Shown here piece after piece: positions 56,047 to 63,701 of a DNA stretch of 64,000 bases. The position numbers and the translations under genes are program-made. The DNA comes from an uncultured Lachnospiraceae bacterium (GTDB lineage Bacteria; Bacillota; Clostridia; Lachnospirales; Lachnospiraceae). The DNA is taken from the NCBI GenBank assembly GCA_947565425.1, contig CANOFW010000008.1, positions 1 through 64,000 of the forward strand, written 5' to 3'. Under the pieces are notes generated by a model. It did no database searches and had not been told where the DNA came from. It was given only the letters and a program-made list of their open reading frames with translations. Numbering within the stretch: the stretch's first letter is position 1; each line of letters opens with the position of its first letter.

Positions 56047-56841
56047 GTGAAAAGATTCTTGGCGGATATAAACAAGTACAGAGAATATGCCGTATATTCA
56101 GCAAAATCTGGATTGAAGGCTGAAGTGGCAGATTCCCATTTGAGCTGGATGTGGTGGATTTTAGACCCACTGTTGTTCATGCTCGTCTATTCTTTTGTAG
56201 CAATTATTGTCTTTGGCAAAGGAGAAAAATACTTTGCAGCGTTCGTATTTATCGGTTTGACATCCTGGCGGTTTTTCTCTGCGACCATTAAACAGAGCGT
56301 GCGTCTGGTATCTAGGAACAGTTCAACCGTCTCCAGAATATATATGCCAAAATATATTTTGATTATTATTCAGATGTTAATTAACTGTTTCAAAATGTTG
56401 ATTTCGTTCAGTCTTGTGGCTGGCACTATGGTTATTTACAGGGTGCCGTTATCTTTCCGTATGCTCTATGCGATTCCCTGTATTTTGGTGCTGTTGGTAG
56501 TGACCTTTGGCTTCAGCAGCATTGTGCTTCATTTTGGTGTATATGTAGATGATTTGACAAATATTATAGATGTTTTTTTGCGGCTGGTATTTTATCTGAC
56601 CGGTATTTTCTATTCTATTGAGGCAAGGGTTGGAGGCGCTTTGGGAGCAGGTTATGCCACCTTGCTGCTGCGGGGGAATCCGGCGGCTTTGGTGATTGAC
56701 AGTATGCGTAAATGTTTGCTCTATGATATGACGCCGGATTTACCCGCATTGGGACTTTGGCTTCTTGCTGGATGTATATTATCGGCATTTGGCGTGCGGA
56801 TGATCTATAAGAATGAGAACAGTTATGTGAAGATTATGTGA
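56047..56841 (+). CDS. Second polysaccharide ABC exporter, membrane subunit (TagG-like)
   Basis: 264 residues with six membrane helices of the ABC-2 type. The N-terminus (YRELAVYSAKS-like, then SHLSWMWWILDPLLFMLVYSF) is the typical TagG/RfbA start. GGAGGGA (56034-56040) lies six bases before GTG 56047. It begins a new transcript with its own strong promoter and pairs with the ATPase 16 bp downstream. It is only distantly similar to the exporter subunit at 46.8 kb. Confidence 0.9.
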   Translation: MKRFLADINKYREYAVYSAKSGLKAEVADSHLSWMWWILDPLLFMLVYSFVAIIVFGKGEKYFAAFVFIGLTSWRFFSATIKQSVRLVSRNSSTVSRIYMPKYILIIIQMLINCFKMLISFSLVAGTMVIYRVPLSFRMLYAIPCILVLLVVTFGFSSIVLHFGVYVDDLTNIIDVFLRLVFYLTGIFYSIEARVGGALGAGYATLLLRGNPAALVIDSMRKCLLYDMTPDLPALGLWLLAGCILSAFGVRMIYKNENSYVKIM

Positions 56842-56857: not shown

Positions 56858-57592
56858 GTGGAAGAGAAAAATTATGCAATTGAGGTAAAAGATCTGAAAG
56901 TAAGATATCGTTGTCTGAATAAGATTTCCATTAAGAAAAGCTTGTTCAAACTCAAGAAGAGCAATGTGGAGATTTTTGAGGCTTTGCGAGGGATTTCCTT
57001 TAATGTGCCCAAAGGAGAGATTATGGGCATCGTGGGCAAGAACGGCAGCGGCAAGTCAACGCTTTTGCGCGCCATTGCCGGGATTTTTGCTCCAGACGAG
57101 GGCAGTATTGATCTGAATGGCCACACCGTGTCGCTGCTCTCGATTGGCGTTGGCTTCCAGAAGAAGTTGACCGGCAGGGAAAATATTCTGCTCTCCGGTA
57201 TGTTGCTGGGGTTTTCCGAAGAGGAAATCAGAGCGAGGATGTCGGAAATTATTGAATTCTCAGAGCTGGGCAAATTCATTGACCGCCCGGTAAGGACGTA
57301 CTCGAGCGGTATGCATTCCAAACTTGCCTTTTCTATAACGGCGATTTTAGAGACAGAGATTATGTTGGTGGACGAGGTGCTCAGCGTAGGAGACGCCAAG
57401 TTTAAGAAGAAAAGTTTTAAGAAAATGAAACAATTAATCAATGACAAAGACCGCACGGTTGTTATTGTCTCCCATAATAGTGAGACGTTGCGCAAGCTCT
57501 GCAATACGATTCTGTGGCTTCACGATGGAGTGATAAAGATGCAGGGAAGCACCGAGGAGGTATTACCATTGTATGAAGAATTCATGTCATAA
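56858..57592 (+). CDS. Second polysaccharide ABC exporter, ATPase subunit (TagH-like)
   Basis: 244 residues, an ATPase domain only: Walker A GKNGSGKST (60-68), signature YSSGMHSKLAFS, Walker B IMLVDEVLSVGD. It lacks the C-terminal chain-recognition domain seen in the ATPase at 47.6 kb, so the two exporters probably handle different polymers. GTG start with GGTGAG just upstream. It overlaps the LicD gene by 20 bp. Confidence 0.92.
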   Translation: MEEKNYAIEVKDLKVRYRCLNKISIKKSLFKLKKSNVEIFEALRGISFNVPKGEIMGIVGKNGSGKSTLLRAIAGIFAPDEGSIDLNGHTVSLLSIGVGFQKKLTGRENILLSGMLLGFSEEEIRARMSEIIEFSELGKFIDRPVRTYSSGMHSKLAFSITAILETEIMLVDEVLSVGDAKFKKKSFKKMKQLINDKDRTVVIVSHNSETLRKLCNTILWLHDGVIKMQGSTEEVLPLYEEFMS

Positions 57593-58409
57593 ACAGGAAT
57601 ATGATGTCAGACGGCTGCAAAAACATTTGCTGGATATCTTGACAGAAGTGGTGCGTGTATGCGAAGAATTGGGGATTGATTATTTCATCATGGGAGGGAC
57701 GGCGCTTGGCGCTGTGCGCCATGGAGGATTTATACCGTGGGATGATGATTTGGATATCGGCATGCGGCGGGAGGATTATGAGAAATTTCTTGCCGGGGCG
57801 CAGGCGCATCTGCGGTCAGATTTATTTTTACAGACATACCAGACAGAACCGAATTCTCCATTCTATTTTGCCAAGGTAAGGAAAGATAATACGAAATTCA
57901 TTGAAAAATATTGCCGGAAACTTGACATACATGCTGGAATTTATATTGATATTTTCCCTTATGACGCTCTGCCAGATGATAAGAAGGAACGAATGAAACA
58001 TTACCGCAGGATGAAATATATGTTGAACCTGTATATAGCGAAATGCGTGACTGGTACAAGTGTGCACTACAGGGGCATAAAGAAGCTGATCTATGGCTGT
58101 ATTCGCCATACACTCCATATTCTGATGCTGCCTGTACCGAAACGTTTCCTTTACAGGCAGACGGATAGGATGATGCGCAAATATAACGATAACCCGTCTC
58201 AGTATCTGGGTTATGGGGGGCAACCCAAAGTTCAGGTGCCGCGGGCTGACGTCATCGAACCGGCAAAAATTACGTTTGAGAACCTCACAGTCAAATGTCC
58301 GCAAAAGATTGAAGAATATTTGACATATAATTATGGGGATTATAAGAAATTGCCTCCCGTAGAGGAGCGCAAAGGCCATGTTCCCTGGCTGGTGGAATAT
58401 GAAAGATAA
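57573..58409 (+). CDS. LicD-family phosphotransferase
   Basis: LicD enzymes move a phospho-group (phosphocholine in pneumococcus) from a CDP/CMP donor to a glycan. 278 residues with the family box GGTALGAVRHGGFIPWDDDL (41-60): the DDD triad is the metal site. YIDIFPYD is a further family motif. GAGGAGG lies 12 bases before the ATG, inside the ATPase gene. The following genes make and probably CMP-activate a phosphonate, so the transferred group here may be 2-hydroxyethylphosphonate rather than phosphocholine; that is inference. Confidence 0.87.
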   Translation: MKNSCHKQEYDVRRLQKHLLDILTEVVRVCEELGIDYFIMGGTALGAVRHGGFIPWDDDLDIGMRREDYEKFLAGAQAHLRSDLFLQTYQTEPNSPFYFAKVRKDNTKFIEKYCRKLDIHAGIYIDIFPYDALPDDKKERMKHYRRMKYMLNLYIAKCVTGTSVHYRGIKKLIYGCIRHTLHILMLPVPKRFLYRQTDRMMRKYNDNPSQYLGYGGQPKVQVPRADVIEPAKITFENLTVKCPQKIEEYLTYNYGDYKKLPPVEERKGHVPWLVEYER

Positions 58410-58474
58410 TGGATAGAGATAGATGGCAATTGGACAAGCTAATAGTGTATGACAATAAGATGGAGGAATGGTGA

Positions 58475-59599
58475 ATGCAAATCAAATATTTATTGGATGA
58501 GATTGAAAAGTTGGGTGTAGCATTTTACACGGGTGTGCCGGATTCTCAACTGCGCGCGCTGTGCGATACGCTGATGAGCCGTTATGGTATCGGTGAGAAG
58601 CATGTGATTGCAGCGAACGAGGGAGCGGCAGTCGGGCTTGCCGCAGGACATTATCTTGCGACGGGCAATCCGGCGGTTGTCTATATGCAAAACAGTGGCA
58701 TTGGCAATGCTGTAAACCCGATTTGTTCTCTGGTAAATGATAAAGTCTATGCAATTCCTGTATTGTTTATTGTGGGATGGCGAGGAGAACCGGGTGTTCA
58801 TGATGAGCCGCAGCATATTTATCAGGGAGAAGTCACCAGGCAGTTGTTGGATTGTCTGGGTGTGAAGAATTTTGTTATCTCAAAGGACACTTCGCCGGAG
58901 GAATTATGCAGTTATTTTACAGAAATTAAAAAAGAGTTTGCTCTGGGACACCAGTGTGCGTTGGTGGTGCGAAAAGGCGCTTTGGAGTCGGAGGAAAAGC
59001 TGAAATATGTCAATGAGTATCCATTGTCCAGAGAAGACGTGGTGAAATTGTTTGTGGAGCATACCGATGAGCGGGATATCATTGTCTCCACGACTGGCAA
59101 GCTTTCCAGAGAGTTGTTTGAGGCAAGAGAGGCGCGCGGACAGGGACATGAGAAGGACTTCTTAACAGTTGGCTCGATGGGGCACTCTTCGATGATTGCC
59201 ATGGGCATTGCCAGGGAGAAGAAGGATCGTCGCGTCTTCTGTTTGGATGGAGACGGCGCGGTGTTGATGCATATGGGAAGCCTTGCTGTGGCAGGCAGCG
59301 CGCAGATGGCAAACTTTGTCCATGTCTTGTTTAACAATGGAGCGCACGAGACGGTTGGAGGTATGCCTACGGTAAGTGAGAAGATTGATTATCTGGGTGT
59401 TGCAAAGTCGTGCGGTTATGAGAATATTTATACGGCCAAGACAGAAGCAGAAGTGGTAGCTTTATTTGAAAAAATTGCGCAGGCGAAAGGCTCTGTGTTC
59501 GCAGAAGTAAAGACGAACTTGTTGTCGCGTGCAGATTTAGGCAGGCCCACCACGACACCTGTACAGAATAAAGAAGCGTTTATGGCGTTTTTAAAATAG
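58475..59599 (+). CDS. aepY: Phosphonopyruvate decarboxylase (AepY)
   Basis: A thiamine-diphosphate enzyme that decarboxylates phosphonopyruvate to phosphonoacetaldehyde, pulling the unfavourable PEP mutase reaction forward. 374 residues (family about 375-380): FYTGVPDSQL at the N-terminus, ANEGAAVGLAAGHYLA (the ThDP-activating Glu), and the cofactor-binding GDGAVLMHMGSLA with LFNNGAHETVGG near 258-290. GGAGG (58462-58466) lies eight bases before the ATG. PEP mutase is not in the window. Sulfopyruvate decarboxylase is a relative, but the neighbours favour the phosphonate role. Confidence 0.9.
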   Translation: MQIKYLLDEIEKLGVAFYTGVPDSQLRALCDTLMSRYGIGEKHVIAANEGAAVGLAAGHYLATGNPAVVYMQNSGIGNAVNPICSLVNDKVYAIPVLFIVGWRGEPGVHDEPQHIYQGEVTRQLLDCLGVKNFVISKDTSPEELCSYFTEIKKEFALGHQCALVVRKGALESEEKLKYVNEYPLSREDVVKLFVEHTDERDIIVSTTGKLSRELFEAREARGQGHEKDFLTVGSMGHSSMIAMGIAREKKDRRVFCLDGDGAVLMHMGSLAVAGSAQMANFVHVLFNNGAHETVGGMPTVSEKIDYLGVAKSCGYENIYTAKTEAEVVALFEKIAQAKGSVFAEVKTNLLSRADLGRPTTTPVQNKEAFMAFLK

Positions 59600-59609
59600 G
59601 GGAAAAAGA

Positions 59610-60338
59610 ATGAAAGCATTGATTTTAAATTCAGGAATCGGCAAACGTATGGGTGAGCTGACAAAGACGAAGAATAAGTGTATGGCAGAGATTGCGCCGG
59701 GAATTACGATTCTCGACTGGCAGCTTCGGTTGCTTGAAAAAGAAGGTATTACCGACGTGGTGATTACCACCGGTCCCTTTGCAGAACATTTACAGGAATA
59801 TGTGTCTGAAAGATATCCAGGGATTTCGTTTACGTTTCGTCACAATCCGGTGTATGACCAGACAAATTATATTTACTCGATTGCGCTTGCCGAAGATGCG
59901 CTGCGAGAGGATGATATCTTGCTGATGCATGGGGATTTGGTGTTTGAACGAAGCGTCCTTGCGGACATTGCTGGGTGCGAGACCAGCGCTATGGTGGTAG
60001 ATGAGACGTTACCTCTGCCGGAAAAGGATTTTAAGGCGGTTGTGCAGGAGGGAAAGATTACCAAAGTTGGGATTGAATTTTTTGAGGACGCTTATGCTGC
60101 GCAGCCTTTGTATAAGTTATACAGGGAAGACTGGTCACAGTGGCTTGCGAATATTTTGGCGTTTTGTGAACAGGGAACTCGTAGCGTTTATGCTGAGAAT
60201 GCTATGAATGAAATTTCCGACAAATTAACCATTCATCCATTTAACGTTGCAGGAAGAATCTGCACAGAGGTGGATAACCTTGAGGATTTAGCGCGGGTAC
60301 AGAAGATGATGGAACCAATCATTGCCAAGGAGAGCTGA
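59610..60338 (+). CDS. Nucleotidyltransferase, candidate phosphonate cytidylyltransferase
   Basis: 242 residues of the sugar-nucleotidyltransferase fold: MKALILNSGIGKRMGELT (a GxGxRM nucleotide loop in which Gly replaces part of the usual GGxGTR), then LLMHGDLVFE (metal-binding Asp). It resembles phosphocholine cytidylyltransferases (LicC) and the phosphonate-specific PntC group. In this operon it would couple CTP to 2-hydroxyethylphosphonate or 2-aminoethylphosphonate, giving the donor for LicD or the TagF-like enzyme. The exact substrate cannot be told from sequence. AGGGGAAA precedes the ATG. Confidence 0.78.
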   Translation: MKALILNSGIGKRMGELTKTKNKCMAEIAPGITILDWQLRLLEKEGITDVVITTGPFAEHLQEYVSERYPGISFTFRHNPVYDQTNYIYSIALAEDALREDDILLMHGDLVFERSVLADIAGCETSAMVVDETLPLPEKDFKAVVQEGKITKVGIEFFEDAYAAQPLYKLYREDWSQWLANILAFCEQGTRSVYAENAMNEISDKLTIHPFNVAGRICTEVDNLEDLARVQKMMEPIIAKES

Positions 60339-60422
60339 TACCGGCTGTCTGTTATGTGCAGATCAAGCGCAGGGCGGACGGTTTGATTTGCAGCTCGAGA
60401 AGGCGGATGTGGAGGCGGGAGT

Positions 60423-61262
60423 GTGTTATATAATGTTGTGCAGTCGGTGAAAACGGTACTCAAACAGGGGATGAAAGCGTGGTATGGCATGGTGGGTTTT
60501 TTTCGGAGCCATGGCATTGTATTTCGCGCAAATAGCAGGCGGCTTTTATCCTACCGGGATAAGTACAAAGGGCAAAGGTGCTTCCTTATCGGCAATGGGC
60601 CAAGCCTCAGAATGGAGGATTTGGAGAAGCTTGATGGGGAGGTTTCTTTTGCCTGCAATATTATTTATAAGGTATTCGATAAAGTCCGCTGGCGGCCAAC
60701 GTATCATTTTATCTCGGATGTTGTGGCCATTCATGCGATAAACGAGGAAGGAATGCTCGACAAGATTTTAGAACGTCCCCTATTTTCCAATAAAGATGTA
60801 TATGCAAAGCTCAAGCGCCTGCAAGATGTAGGAGAAGGGGTTATCTATTTAAACCGCATCAATCAGCAGAAGTACAGAGTCAGCAGAAATCCTCTGGCGT
60901 ATTATGTGCCGGCACAGGCAACGGTGATGACATTGATGATTGAGATGGCGGTTTTTATGGGATTTGCGGAAATCTATCTGCTGGGCGTGGACTGTACCAA
61001 TACGTTTACAGAAGGCCATTTTGAGAAATCTTATACTGATAAGTCGGTGGATGATTATAATTTGGAATGGGTGCGCAAGAAGACAAACCGTCCGAATCTG
61101 ACGTTGTTTGAGCTTGGCGAGGAACGTAGGCTGCGCTCGCTGGATGCCTATCGCAAACTGAAGGAATATGCAGACAGCAAACAGGTAAAAATATATAATG
61201 CCACGCGTGGAGGCGCCCTGGAAGTGTTTGAGCGGGTGGATTTCGACGAGGTTATGAAATGA
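60423..61262 (+). CDS. DUF115 (MptE-like fold) protein, possible glycan-modifying enzyme
   Basis: 279 residues from GTG 60423 with GGAGG at 60411-60415. The signature CFLIGNGPSLRMEDLE (53-68) is the nucleotide-binding loop of DUF115/MptE-like proteins, a Rossmann fold related to sialyltransferase-like enzymes of some surface-glycan loci. A second conserved stretch is AEIYLLGVDCTNT. Members act in pterin synthesis (archaea) or sit in bacterial glycan operons. Here a transferase role is likelier than pterin synthesis because of the neighbours. Confidence 0.75.
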   Translation: MLYNVVQSVKTVLKQGMKAWYGMVGFFRSHGIVFRANSRRLLSYRDKYKGQRCFLIGNGPSLRMEDLEKLDGEVSFACNIIYKVFDKVRWRPTYHFISDVVAIHAINEEGMLDKILERPLFSNKDVYAKLKRLQDVGEGVIYLNRINQQKYRVSRNPLAYYVPAQATVMTLMIEMAVFMGFAEIYLLGVDCTNTFTEGHFEKSYTDKSVDDYNLEWVRKKTNRPNLTLFELGEERRLRSLDAYRKLKEYADSKQVKIYNATRGGALEVFERVDFDEVMK

Positions 61263-61354
61263 GAATGCCCCAGTATGTGGGGAATTTGCAGTAAAGTCCG
61301 CAGACGTCTGTGAGAGGAAAGACGACGGATTGCCAGTTGCATAGAGGAGGAGCC

Positions 61355-62485
61355 ATGCAAAAAGAAAATTATAAAACCCAGGTGATTGTCAGTGGAGAAG
61401 GAGCTTTGCAGGAGGCGGCTTTGATTGTTCGGAAATTGGGCGTACAGAATATATTAGCAGTCTGCTCAAAATCGGCAAAGAAGCATTGCGGCGAGGAATT
61501 TTGGCGGGAATTTCCGGGAAAGGTTATCTTTTTCCATGCGTTTTCTCCCAATCCCAAATATGAAGAAGTTGAGGCGGGGGTGGCGTTGTTTGAGAAAGAA
61601 CAATGCGAAATGGTTCTTTCCATGGGTGGCGGCAGCGCCATGGATGTGGCGAAATGCATCAAAATGTTTGCGCCTATGGACAAACATGAGAATTATTTGA
61701 AGCAGGAAAAGAAAGTCAATGATATTCGTCATATTGCGATACCGTCCACTGCCGGAACCGGCAGTGAATCTACGAGTTTTGCCGTGGTTTATTACCAGGA
61801 GGAGAAGCAGTCCGTGGCGCATTCATCGCTGCTTCCAGATTATGCTATTTTGCATGCAGGATTTTTGGAAAATTTACCGCTCTATCAGAAAAAGGCGACG
61901 ATGATGGACGCTTTGTGTCAGGCGGTGGAATCTTACTGGTCGGTAAATTCCACGAAAGAGAGCAGGCAATATGCGCGCGAGGCGATTGTGGCGTTGCGTA
62001 AGGCGTGGCAGGGGTATGTTGAGGAAAATACAAATTGGCTACAGATTATGGCGGCGGCGAATTTCGCAGGCCGGGCTATCAATATTTCTAAGACGACGGC
62101 TGCACATGCGATGAGTTATAAGATTACTTCGATGTATGGGTTTGCCCACGGGCATGCGGCGGCAATCTGCCTGCCAAAGACTTGGGCTTATCTGCAAGAG
62201 CATATAGATGACTGTACAGATGAAAGAGGGAAAGATTACCTCTTGCAGATATTAGAGGAATTGAATCAGATGCTAGGCACGGAAAATACACAGGAGTCTA
62301 TATCCTGGTTTACCAAGCTGATTGATGACTTAGAGCTTCCTTATCCAGTTCAGTGTGGGGAAGAGGACGTGGAAATCTTATCCGCCTCGGTCAATGCAGA
62401 GCGGTTAAATAACTTTCCGGTAAAAGTAACTAAGGAAGCGTTGTGCGCGATGTACCGTGAGATTGTAGGAGAAACGCAGAGGTAG
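61355..62485 (+). CDS. Phosphonoacetaldehyde reductase-like iron-family alcohol dehydrogenase
   Basis: Would reduce phosphonoacetaldehyde (the product of AepY) to 2-hydroxyethylphosphonate with NAD(P)H. 376 residues from ATG 61355 (GGAGGAG just upstream). Group III dehydrogenase features: SMGGGSAMDVAKC (nucleotide-binding), PSTAGTGSES, and the metal region HAMSYKITSMYGFAHGHAAA. The first ligand pair reads DALCQAVES, so the His found in FucO-type enzymes is Gln here; this may be normal in the phosphonate subgroup. No transaminase lies nearby, so hydroxyethyl- rather than aminoethylphosphonate is the likelier product. Confidence 0.8.
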   Translation: MQKENYKTQVIVSGEGALQEAALIVRKLGVQNILAVCSKSAKKHCGEEFWREFPGKVIFFHAFSPNPKYEEVEAGVALFEKEQCEMVLSMGGGSAMDVAKCIKMFAPMDKHENYLKQEKKVNDIRHIAIPSTAGTGSESTSFAVVYYQEEKQSVAHSSLLPDYAILHAGFLENLPLYQKKATMMDALCQAVESYWSVNSTKESRQYAREAIVALRKAWQGYVEENTNWLQIMAAANFAGRAINISKTTAAHAMSYKITSMYGFAHGHAAAICLPKTWAYLQEHIDDCTDERGKDYLLQILEELNQMLGTENTQESISWFTKLIDDLELPYPVQCGEEDVEILSASVNAERLNNFPVKVTKEALCAMYREIVGETQR

Positions 62486-62489
62486 AGAA

Positions 62490-63701
62490 ATGTCAATAAT
62501 CACCAAGCTTCGCAACCGTGTGGAGAAGAAAATTGCATATATCATTTTTCGCACCCTGTTTCGGCAGGATGAGAAGCTTGTGTTGTTTGAATCCTATAAT
62601 GGGGAGGATAACAGCTATAGTTGCAACCCTAAGGCATTGTATGAGCGGATGCAAAAGGCGCCGGAGTATGCGGCGTATCGTTTTGTCTGGTCGGTGCAGC
62701 ATCCAGAGAAATTTGCCTTTTTATGCAAGAATCCCCGCACAAGTGTGGTACAAAAGGGCAGCTATGAGTATTTGAAAACTTGTGCCAGAGCTTGCTATTT
62801 GTTTACCAATACTGGACTGCCAAGTTATATCCTGCCGAACAGACGCCAGAAGTTGGTGTATCTGTGGCATGGGAAGCCCCTGAAATGTATTGGCTGCGGG
62901 ATCAAAGGCGCTGGCGACGGCAAACGCTCCAAGGCAAAGATTGCTATGGATTATCGAAGTTCCGGCAGACGGTTGGATATCCTGTTATCCCCCGCTCCGG
63001 CATTTTCAGATGTTATGAGCCAGGCTTACGCGCTCAGTGAGAAGAAACGAAAGCGCGCCTTACTATTGTGCGGTTATCCGAGAAATGATTTCCTGTTTCG
63101 TTATACGAGGGAAGATATTGCGCGCGTGAAGGTGAGGTTGTCGGTGCCCGCGGGGAAGAAGGTTATTCTCTATGCGCCGACCTGGAGGCCTTATCATTGG
63201 CTGGGGGGGAATCATTTTCAGCATACGGGCGGGCTTGATTTTGACTTGATGCGACGGAAGCTGGGAGAAGATTGTGTGCTGCTTTGTCGTCTGCATCATA
63301 TGGAAAAAGGAAGCGTTCGTTATGATGAATATCCAGGTTTCTTGTATGATGTGACGGATTACCCCGAGGTCAACGAGTTATATATTATCAGCGATTTGAT
63401 GATATCGGACTATTCCGGGACAATCTTTGATTATGCCAATCTTAAACGCCCGATGGTATTGTATATGTATGATAGGGAACAATATGTAGAGCACGCGAAT
63501 GGGCTGAACTTTCCCTTAGAATCGCTGCCAGGCAGAATTGTCGAGAACCAGGAGGAACTAGTATGCGCGGTTCGAGAAGAACTGTCTGCGTTTTCGTATG
63601 ATGAGAAGTACCGTCAATTTAATGAAACGTTCAACTGCCTAGAAGGAGCGGATTCTTCTGGCAAGCTTTTGGCAGCGGTCATTGGGCAGACAAATAGCTA
63701 A
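62490..63701 (+). CDS. CDP-glycerol glycerophosphotransferase-like protein (TagB/TagF family)
   Basis: 403 residues matching the C-terminal catalytic part of teichoic acid primases/polymerases: YLWHGKPLK (about 122-130), LYAPTWRPYHW (about 229-239), LRLHHME-like RLHHM, and MISDYSGTIFDYA (about 306-318). The family moves glycerol-phosphate (or ribitol-phosphate) from a CDP donor to a growing chain. No tagD (CDP-glycerol) gene is in the window. In this operon the donor could instead be a CMP-activated phosphonate; that is speculative. It starts 4 bp after the dehydrogenase and is the last gene of the operon. Confidence 0.85.
   Translation: MSIITKLRNRVEKKIAYIIFRTLFRQDEKLVLFESYNGEDNSYSCNPKALYERMQKAPEYAAYRFVWSVQHPEKFAFLCKNPRTSVVQKGSYEYLKTCARACYLFTNTGLPSYILPNRRQKLVYLWHGKPLKCIGCGIKGAGDGKRSKAKIAMDYRSSGRRLDILLSPAPAFSDVMSQAYALSEKKRKRALLLCGYPRNDFLFRYTREDIARVKVRLSVPAGKKVILYAPTWRPYHWLGGNHFQHTGGLDFDLMRRKLGEDCVLLCRLHHMEKGSVRYDEYPGFLYDVTDYPEVNELYIISDLMISDYSGTIFDYANLKRPMVLYMYDREQYVEHANGLNFPLESLPGRIVENQEELVCAVREELSAFSYDEKYRQFNETFNCLEGADSSGKLLAAVIGQTNS

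Follow-up and report, generated by a model that had tools for sequence, protein, structure and literature searches.

The DNA analysed here, referred to as the window, comprises the first 64,000 bases of contig CANOFW010000008.1 (C8) from an uncultured Lachnospiraceae bacterium, whose assembly (GCA_947565425.1) spans 3.36 Mb in 65 contigs, including C3 and C20 discussed below, and is 92.9% complete. Close to the end of the window lies a gene array that we read as a putative pathway for 2-hydroxyethylphosphonate (HEP) and for its attachment to a surface polymer, to which a phosphoenolpyruvate (PEP) mutase gene is linked (Table 1). The six genes listed in an initial annotation of this stretch are all open reading frames at the positions it gave, on a single strand, and each of its family calls, i.e. 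a phosphonopyruvate decarboxylase (Ppd/AepY), a nucleotidyltransferase of LicC/PntC type (NTP), LicD, DUF115, a TagF-like transferase and a dehydrogenase, is backed by Pfam or NCBIfam matches. DUF115 presumably corresponds to the family now named MptE-like (PF01973). The ABC exporter proposed directly upstream is also real. Its permease has no Pfam match, and the NCBIfam models in Table 1 describe a galactan export permease (NF050109) and a teichoic acids export ATP-binding subunit (NF010065).

Table 1. Exporter, phosphonate and transferase genes of the array, and the linked PEP mutase.
Feature	Position	Strand	Supporting match
ABC-2 polysaccharide export permease (Wzm-like)	56047..56841	+	NF050109 39.8 bits (below cut-off 380); copy in syntenic locus L106 82% identical
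ABC export ATPase (Wzt/TagH-like, 244 aa)	56858..57592	+	PF00005 82.2 bits; NF010065 219.9 bits (below cut-off 538)
LicD-family phosphotransferase, candidate HEP transferase	57573..58409	+	PF04991 158.6 bits (cut-off 22.6)
Phosphonopyruvate decarboxylase (Ppd/AepY)	58475..59599	+	TIGR03297 476 bits (cut-off 312.5)
NTP, PntC/LicC-like nucleotidyltransferase, putative CTP:HEP cytidylyltransferase	59610..60338	+	PF12804 and PF00483 over cut-off
MptE-like (DUF115) protein	60423..61262	+	PF01973 39.5 bits (cut-off 34.6)
Iron-type alcohol dehydrogenase, putative phosphonoacetaldehyde reductase	61310..62485	+	PF00465 121.4 bits (cut-off 31.3)
TagF/TarF-like transferase; alternative candidate HEP or polyol-phosphate transferase	62490..63701	+	PF04464 281.8 bits (cut-off 22.1)
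PEP mutase, 441 aa, outside the window	C8:74468-75793	+	TIGR02320 406.9 bits (cut-off 319.55)

The genes are closely packed behind the exporter, with spacings of -20 to 84 bases from the ATPase to the TagF-like gene. licD begins 20 bases before the ATPase gene ends, and the subsequent gaps are 65 (Ppd), 10 (NTP), 84 (MptE-like), 47 (dehydrogenase) and 4 bases (TagF-like). The start of the dehydrogenase is unsure, and the GTG at 61310 may lie about 15 codons too early. Of the operon originally drawn from 57573 to 63701, the tight same-strand arrangement stands but the endpoint does not: beyond a 305-base gap 3' of the TagF-like gene, genes run on to about C8:79815 and include the PEP mutase. 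By array we mean a run of genes by position; we argue for a single transcript neither from this gap nor from promoter and terminator scans, which were near the shuffled expectation and do not resolve the operon borders. Scans of the window with Rfam (gathering threshold) and for tRNAs yielded no match. Opposite-strand frames overlap the listed genes from Wzm to a downstream MBOAT acyltransferase, and we take none for a gene.

The PEP mutase is located about 10.5 kb beyond the window end, on the same strand and contig as the array. The initial annotation had named its absence as one result that would refute its reading; the gene was found in the same gene run, carrying the diagnostic motif EDKXXXXXNS as EDKTGLKKNS. 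Identities as methylisocitrate lyase or phosphonopyruvate hydrolase are out on scores of 101 and 148 bits, compared with 407, and on the motif. A sulfopyruvate decarboxylase and sulfoacetaldehyde role for Ppd and the dehydrogenase was likewise rejected: TIGR03846 scores 104 bits versus 476 for TIGR03297, and a PEP mutase is present.

The three enzymes compose a full predicted route from PEP to HEP. PEP mutase would generate phosphonopyruvate, Ppd would decarboxylate it to phosphonoacetaldehyde, and the iron-type dehydrogenase would reduce the aldehyde to HEP, as the initial annotation had proposed for the last two enzymes; the mutase and the comparative context below support that proposal. Known fates of phosphonoacetaldehyde include transamination to 2-aminoethylphosphonate (AEP) and reduction to HEP; no AEP transaminase scores over cut-off in this genome, whereas the iron-type dehydrogenase lies in the gene run. 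D200, H266 and H280 of the dehydrogenase, which we take to be metal ligands together with residue 204, are conserved in 76 of 76 sequences; residue 204 is Gln here and is His in 41 and Gln in 35 of them. Against TIGR03405 (Phn_Fe-ADH, a model named PsrA) it scores 124.4 bits, under the cut-off of 423.7. The portion of PMC8976061 available to us assigns phosphonoacetaldehyde reduction in the argolaphos pathway to an Fe-dependent alcohol dehydrogenase. Since the accessible part of PMC9381506 separates such reductases from their common relatives by gene neighbourhood, neighbourhoods were compared here. HEP could also be an intermediate, with a further product such as methylphosphonate or an ester being attached or secreted, because the available text of PMC8931226 and PMC8976061 describes it as an intermediate of methylphosphonate and of antibiotic phosphonates. 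However, no oxygenase family was detected among the proteins scanned across C8:53660-79815 (one of them without any match; the genome was not searched for oxygenases), and we consider a further product quite unlikely.

Across 299 family genomes, a PEP mutase was present in 32 at E <= 1e-60, 31 of which score over the curated cut-off. Up to 20 kb on each side of it was taken, contig permitting, and genes were called by tblastn, with the AEP transaminase and PntC-like queries drawn from the compared loci themselves. NTP occurs with the dehydrogenase in 12 loci and a PntC-like gene with AEP transaminase in 11; the others have AEP transaminase alone (2), PntC-like alone (2), NTP alone (2) or none of these (3). 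No locus mixes the two sets, even at E 1e-5, and AEP transaminase is found in none of the 14 NTP loci. The three transaminases tested from AEP or mixed loci (L051, L048 and L154) all pass the TIGR03301 cut-off. In one genome (G123), NTP and the dehydrogenase are fused. This comparative context supports the HEP branch for the present locus.

AEP could still be the end product if an unlinked aminotransferase made it and the dehydrogenase served something else. According to PMC6697681, AEP-like surface groups are the presumed output of most bacterial phosphonate capacity, and the genome does encode, at C3:142513-144325 (G000; L103:2514-4325), a domain-scanned 604-aa fusion of an NTP to a class I/II aminotransferase. 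However, the best genome-wide score for a PhnW/AepZ-type transaminase in this 92.9% complete assembly is 162 bits against a cut-off of 360.8, the family NTP loci lack AEP transaminase as described above, and NTP matches in frames of this fusion's size, which are common in the family, lie mostly in genomes without PEP mutase. An AEP product is therefore very unlikely in our estimate.

The predicted fold of NTP is of the PntC/LicC type, with PntC closest. At the position where PntC, acting on AEP, has Glu104 near the amine, His107 is found in NTP and in 95 of 95 relatives; LicC's acidic D105 is also replaced by His. From the consensus GXG(T/S)RX4-8PK, residues G9, G11, R13 and K23 are kept in 95 of 95. 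In the family genomes, 15 matches in 14 genomes fall at E <= 7.2e-50 and the next are no better than 5.6e-26; all 14 genomes also carry PEP mutase. In the present locus, the PF12804 gene at 59610 lies about 14 kb from it. The closest named relative among the matches listed (84% identity) comes from a Lachnospiraceae metagenome bin (L106), whose contig breaks off after the series sugar-phosphate transferase, glycosyltransferase, Wzm, LicD, Ppd and NTP; its Wzt is presumably hidden under a chosen opposite-strand frame.

A second nucleotidyltransferase candidate is fused N-terminally to the PEP mutase, as a PF01467 cytidylyltransferase (CyTase) domain. It matches structure 5x3d at E 3.7e-39 across 131 residues and keeps HxGH. 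We take 5x3d to be Fom1, the database naming it only as PEP phosphomutase. Its GISSTR stretch reads DAQYQR here, so that only one of the two Fom1-type motifs is retained. Outside NTP loci, 19 CyTase copies were compared; GISSSQ occurs in a separate CyTase of G163, and GIQLDK in one copy from G251. As an observation in its own right, the PEP-mutase-fused domain has lost GISSTR alike in HEP and AEP loci while retaining HxGH. Judged by these motifs, the fused domain may have another role. In an opposing assignment, this domain would make CMP-HEP (CMP, cytidine monophosphate), as the accessible text of PMC6697681 states for Fom1, and NTP would use another polymer substrate; the match to 5x3d favors it, and a CyTase lacking GISSTR may still be active. 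However, the stretch is replaced in 86 of 86 CyTase copies from NTP loci, and the domain also occurs in AEP loci and is not obviously intact. We regard this assignment as unlikely, and the stand-alone NTP as the better candidate for CMP-HEP formation.

A profile scan of named genomes with NTP recovered at least 515 relatives (E <= 1e-3) from 588 candidate stretches, and the best 80 were kept; counts are by tblastn, and those of fusions and neighbour clusters, from a longest-frame gene picker, may be low. These 80 loci belong to Bacillota (58), Bacteroidota (21) and Spirochaetota (1), mostly as metagenome bins, and many titles name rumen or gut material. PEP mutase is present in 71, and PEP mutase with the dehydrogenase in 61, 58 of these with Ppd. 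LicD occurs in 20 of the 61 HEP loci and is thus not universal. NTP, CyTase and PEP mutase are fused in 58 reading frames; other fusions join NTP to the dehydrogenase (L127), NTP and CyTase to the dehydrogenase (L154) and the dehydrogenase to LicD (L157). In our judgement, gene fusions weigh more than association statistics. Alternatively, NTP and LicD might add phosphocholine, as in the Lic pathway, or another phospho-alcohol, with the phosphonate genes present by coincidence. However, the genome-wide choline kinase (LicA) match is below cut-off (PF01633, 25.5 of 29 bits), LicC D105 is His in NTP, all 15 strong family matches lie in PEP-mutase genomes, and NTP and PEP mutase are fused in 58 frames. 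This makes a phosphocholine role highly improbable.

Several further observations touch the compared loci. In Massiliimalia timonensis (L108) the order is Wzm, Wzt, Ppd, NTP, PEP mutase, LicD, dehydrogenase, LicD. A Saccharofermentans bin (L154:9986-15772) has both branches with one PEP mutase, its NTP-CyTase-dehydrogenase fusion standing beside PntC-like and AEP transaminase genes, and the two branches keep the expected pairing. Apart from the core genes, the search for HEP-specific neighbours gave only small clusters. One of these consists of small kinases, with one member scanning as cytidylate kinase; it is found no more than 8 kb from the module in 10 of 73 HEP loci (L125:10195-10797 and nine others) and in 0 of 13 AEP loci, and could recycle CMP released on transfer.

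Taken together, we propose, with a probability of roughly 0.72, that HEP is made by the locus, converted to CMP-HEP as its activated form and then linked to a surface polymer that is exported. Gene families, linkage, conserved motifs and the predicted NTP fold are computed; substrates and products, above all HEP over other phosphonates, CMP-HEP formation by NTP, and the transferase and its acceptor, are what we infer from them. In the proposed mechanism, the stand-alone NTP would join HEP to CMP, LicD or the TagF-like enzyme would transfer HEP to a glycan or polyol-phosphate chain, and Wzm/Wzt would export the polymer.

Several observations weigh against this proposal. On a tree built from 68 PEP-mutase sequences, 2 changes suffice for the HEP and AEP labels once the 12 rows of neither type are set aside (13 if all three labels are used), and well-supported branches offer no more than 2 independent pairs, so that the association leans on shared ancestry. 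For that reason the Fisher values of 4e-7 and 3e-5 are inflated and are not independent evidence. NTP and dehydrogenase changed in the same direction in 1.6 of the 2 pairs on average, and never oppositely. Within the best 80 named loci, 10 of the 71 with PEP mutase lack a dehydrogenase match above threshold; 6 of the 10 span less than 9 kb, and one, L171 from Natronincola, has a weaker match below the threshold. In 9 others of the 80 the available stretch contains no PEP mutase, and at least L106 and L110 among these break off close to NTP. L154 is the only one of the 80 with an AEP transaminase, and L129 has a distant homologue (28%, 117 bits, under the 250-bit threshold). The dehydrogenase is not exclusive to phosphonate genomes: of 17 family matches at E <= 1.2e-78, the query among them, PEP-mutase genomes account for 13. 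The other 4 come from genomes without that gene, one of them beside phosphonate-ABC-importer-like genes (by eye) and three elsewhere. That one, a 43% relative at L098:8481-13212, is possibly involved in HEP or phosphonoacetaldehyde use. Finally, NTP retains a second acidic pocket residue, Glu196, and its own nucleotidyltransferase consensus is imperfect, with K12 for T/S and N22 for P.

The transferase could be either of two enzymes. LicD and PF04464 enzymes both use donors that release CMP, and PF04464 enzymes classically use CDP-polyols. We counted both families within 5 kb of PEP mutase in the 32 family genomes, compared with uniform placement. PF04464 is near in 11 (3 of 12 HEP and 8 of 13 AEP loci) and LicD in 7 (3 of 12 and 1 of 13), each against an expected 0.2, and one or the other is near in 16; the LicD of the present locus, 17 kb from PEP mutase, is outside those 7. 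Glycan genes tend to lie together, which weakens uniform placement as a null, yet the counts make PF04464 a serious candidate for the phosphonate transferase. Many of these PF04464 genes encode a divergent type of 430-720 aa, which recurs near PEP mutase (G004, G135, G190, G251, G261, G290, G294, G297, G283 and G036), in AEP-type as well as HEP-type loci, and may be a phosphonate transferase.

The TagF-like enzyme, rather than LicD, might thus transfer the phosphonate here and in related loci, a question compatible with the HEP proposal. Its start 4 bases past the dehydrogenase and the higher proximity count speak for it, as does a neighbouring protein in which a decayed NTP/dehydrogenase-like stretch is followed by a TagF-like domain. 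Classical CDP-polyol use, a possible CDP-ribitol supply from C20, the weak null and the position of LicD in other loci (fused to the dehydrogenase in L157, flanking it in L108) speak against it. We hold this assignment as tentative and somewhat less probable than its opposite. The TagF-like protein at 62490 passes the PF04464 cut-off and, with 240.9 bits, stays below the cut-off of 550 for the NCBIfam TarF equivalog; all three near-full-length PF04464 matches of the genome sit in this locus. The best genome-wide score for TagD, the glycerol-3-phosphate cytidylyltransferase, is 46.3 bits (the PEP-mutase CyTase itself) against a cut-off of 165.4 in the 92.9% complete assembly. A frame at C3:180900 was rejected as TagD, since on inspection by eye it resembles a heptose-type adenylyltransferase joined to a sugar-kinase domain. 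C20 carries a TarI-like gene (IspD match) and, both named by eye, a zinc-type dehydrogenase and a ribulose-phosphate-epimerase-like gene, a TarI/TarJ/Rpe-like set that could supply CDP-ribitol.

The polymer may be a phosphonoglycan, a phosphonate-bearing teichoic acid or another type, and the sequence does not choose. HEP combines a phosphonate with a free hydroxyl, which neither AEP nor phosphocholine does, so it is conceivable that a TagF-like polymerase supplied with CMP-HEP joins HEP units into poly(ethylphosphonate) or a mixed phosphonate-polyol teichoic acid with carbon-phosphorus (C-P) bonds in the backbone. One PF04464 gene directly behind the dehydrogenase, another fused behind the decayed stretch and the sub-threshold TagD score favor such a backbone; the possible CDP-ribitol supply does not, nor does the count of 8 HEP loci out of 73 with a canonical TagF-like cluster, and we consider it improbable speculation.

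The fusion protein mentioned above, of 1296 aa, lies just past the window (C8:64007-67897; L003:2008-5898). Its residues from about 220 to 427 are dehydrogenase-like (hhalign probability 94, E 9e-8) and residues 21-58 weakly NTP-like (probability 47), both without catalytic motifs; they are followed by a TagF-like domain, 56% identical to the protein at 62490, and a terminal MptE-like part, 43% identical to 60423-61262. These matches give it the appearance of a copy of the adjacent operon block that has become fused and has partly decayed. A search of the 299 family genomes with its first 609 residues returned nothing but the protein itself at E 1e-8, and their structure model, with a mean pLDDT (predicted local distance difference test) of 40.2, is too poor for use. 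Further genes between the window end and PEP mutase are NeuB-like, NeuA-like, metallo-beta-lactamase-like (by eye) and a TagF-like/glycosyltransferase fusion; 3' of PEP mutase follow mannose-6-phosphate-isomerase-like, SGNH-like (by eye, no Pfam match) and MBOAT acyltransferase genes. The metallo-beta-lactamase-like protein (C8:70116-71807; L003:8117-9808), encoded inside the polymer gene run, has four cell-wall-binding repeats of the choline-binding type and may be held on the wall by this polymer. Upstream, window positions 25236-48908 contain genes of the RmlD and RmlC families, others that by eye resemble RmlA and RmlB, and several glycosyltransferases. A second Wzm/Wzt pair, including a Wzt C-terminal domain, is also encoded there, giving at least two export systems in the region.

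The locus and its relatives point to a second branch of phosphonate tailoring, in which a dedicated cytidylyltransferase, marked by an invariant change of a pocket residue, would activate HEP. Among Bacillota and Bacteroidota of the gut and rumen, this HEP branch is common. Surface polymers with C-P bonds may hence be frequent and unseen in these communities, with relevance to phage receptors, glycan recognition and phosphorus cycling, and since cultured carriers exist, this little-studied surface chemistry is now directly testable. Named strains with the module include Massiliimalia timonensis Marseille-P3753 (L108), Massiliimalia massiliensis Marseille-P2963T (L109), Ruminococcus sp. FC2018 (L134) and Xylanibacter ruminicola D31d (L139). 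A survey of early phosphonate branch points reportedly assigns about 8-9% of ppm neighbourhoods to HEP pathways, so that an HEP branch in itself is no novelty. HEP on polysaccharides is already known from the accessible part of PMC9381506, and that of PMC6697681 describes PEP mutase combined with PF12804 and PF01467 domains, including 42 triple fusions, as well as the CMP-HEP of Fom1, shows CMP activation for AEP and terms the later tailoring steps enigmatic. A literature search covering few subscription journals returned no paper on an HEP-specific PntC or on this branch in gut bacteria. In the literature available to us, partly as excerpts, we did not find the His107 mark, a connection between the triple fusion and the dehydrogenase, or the mutual absence of AEP transaminase from such loci.

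Compared with known systems, the locus belongs to the phosphonyl-tailoring (pnt) clusters described by Rice et al. 2019 (PMC6697681), so that the initial view that it matched no described system does not hold. As in the accessible description of pnt/PntC, PEP mutase with its motif is fused to or near cytidylyltransferase domains (PF12804, PF01467), Ppd and the NTP fold are shared, and LicD, PF04464, glycosyltransferases and an exporter provide the surface-glycan setting. In contrast, an alcohol dehydrogenase replaces the AEP transaminase, which marks AEP-type pnt clusters and is below cut-off genome-wide, Glu104 is changed to His, and an ABC exporter and three TagF-like domains are added. AlpH-AlpI-AlpJ, as far as PMC8976061 is accessible, likewise lead to HEP by PEP mutase, Ppd and an Fe-dependent alcohol dehydrogenase, whereas the genes here stand in a setting of polymer synthesis and export. 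The HEP esters of marine dissolved polysaccharides (PMC9381506, in its available part) resemble the predicted polymer as phosphonate esters on exported polysaccharide, in other organisms. Fom1 of the fosfomycin pathway has the same order of CyTase and PEP mutase and an N-terminal domain that matches through 5x3d, but here GISSTR is lost, NTP is separate, and the setting is that of a surface polymer rather than an antibiotic. Lic phosphocholine decoration shares the LicC-like fold and the LicD family, with phosphonate genes here in place of a choline kinase above cut-off. Phosphonoglycans of Glycomyces and Stackebrandtia are said to carry HEP and, like the predicted polymer, would represent phosphonate esters on exported polysaccharide in other organisms.

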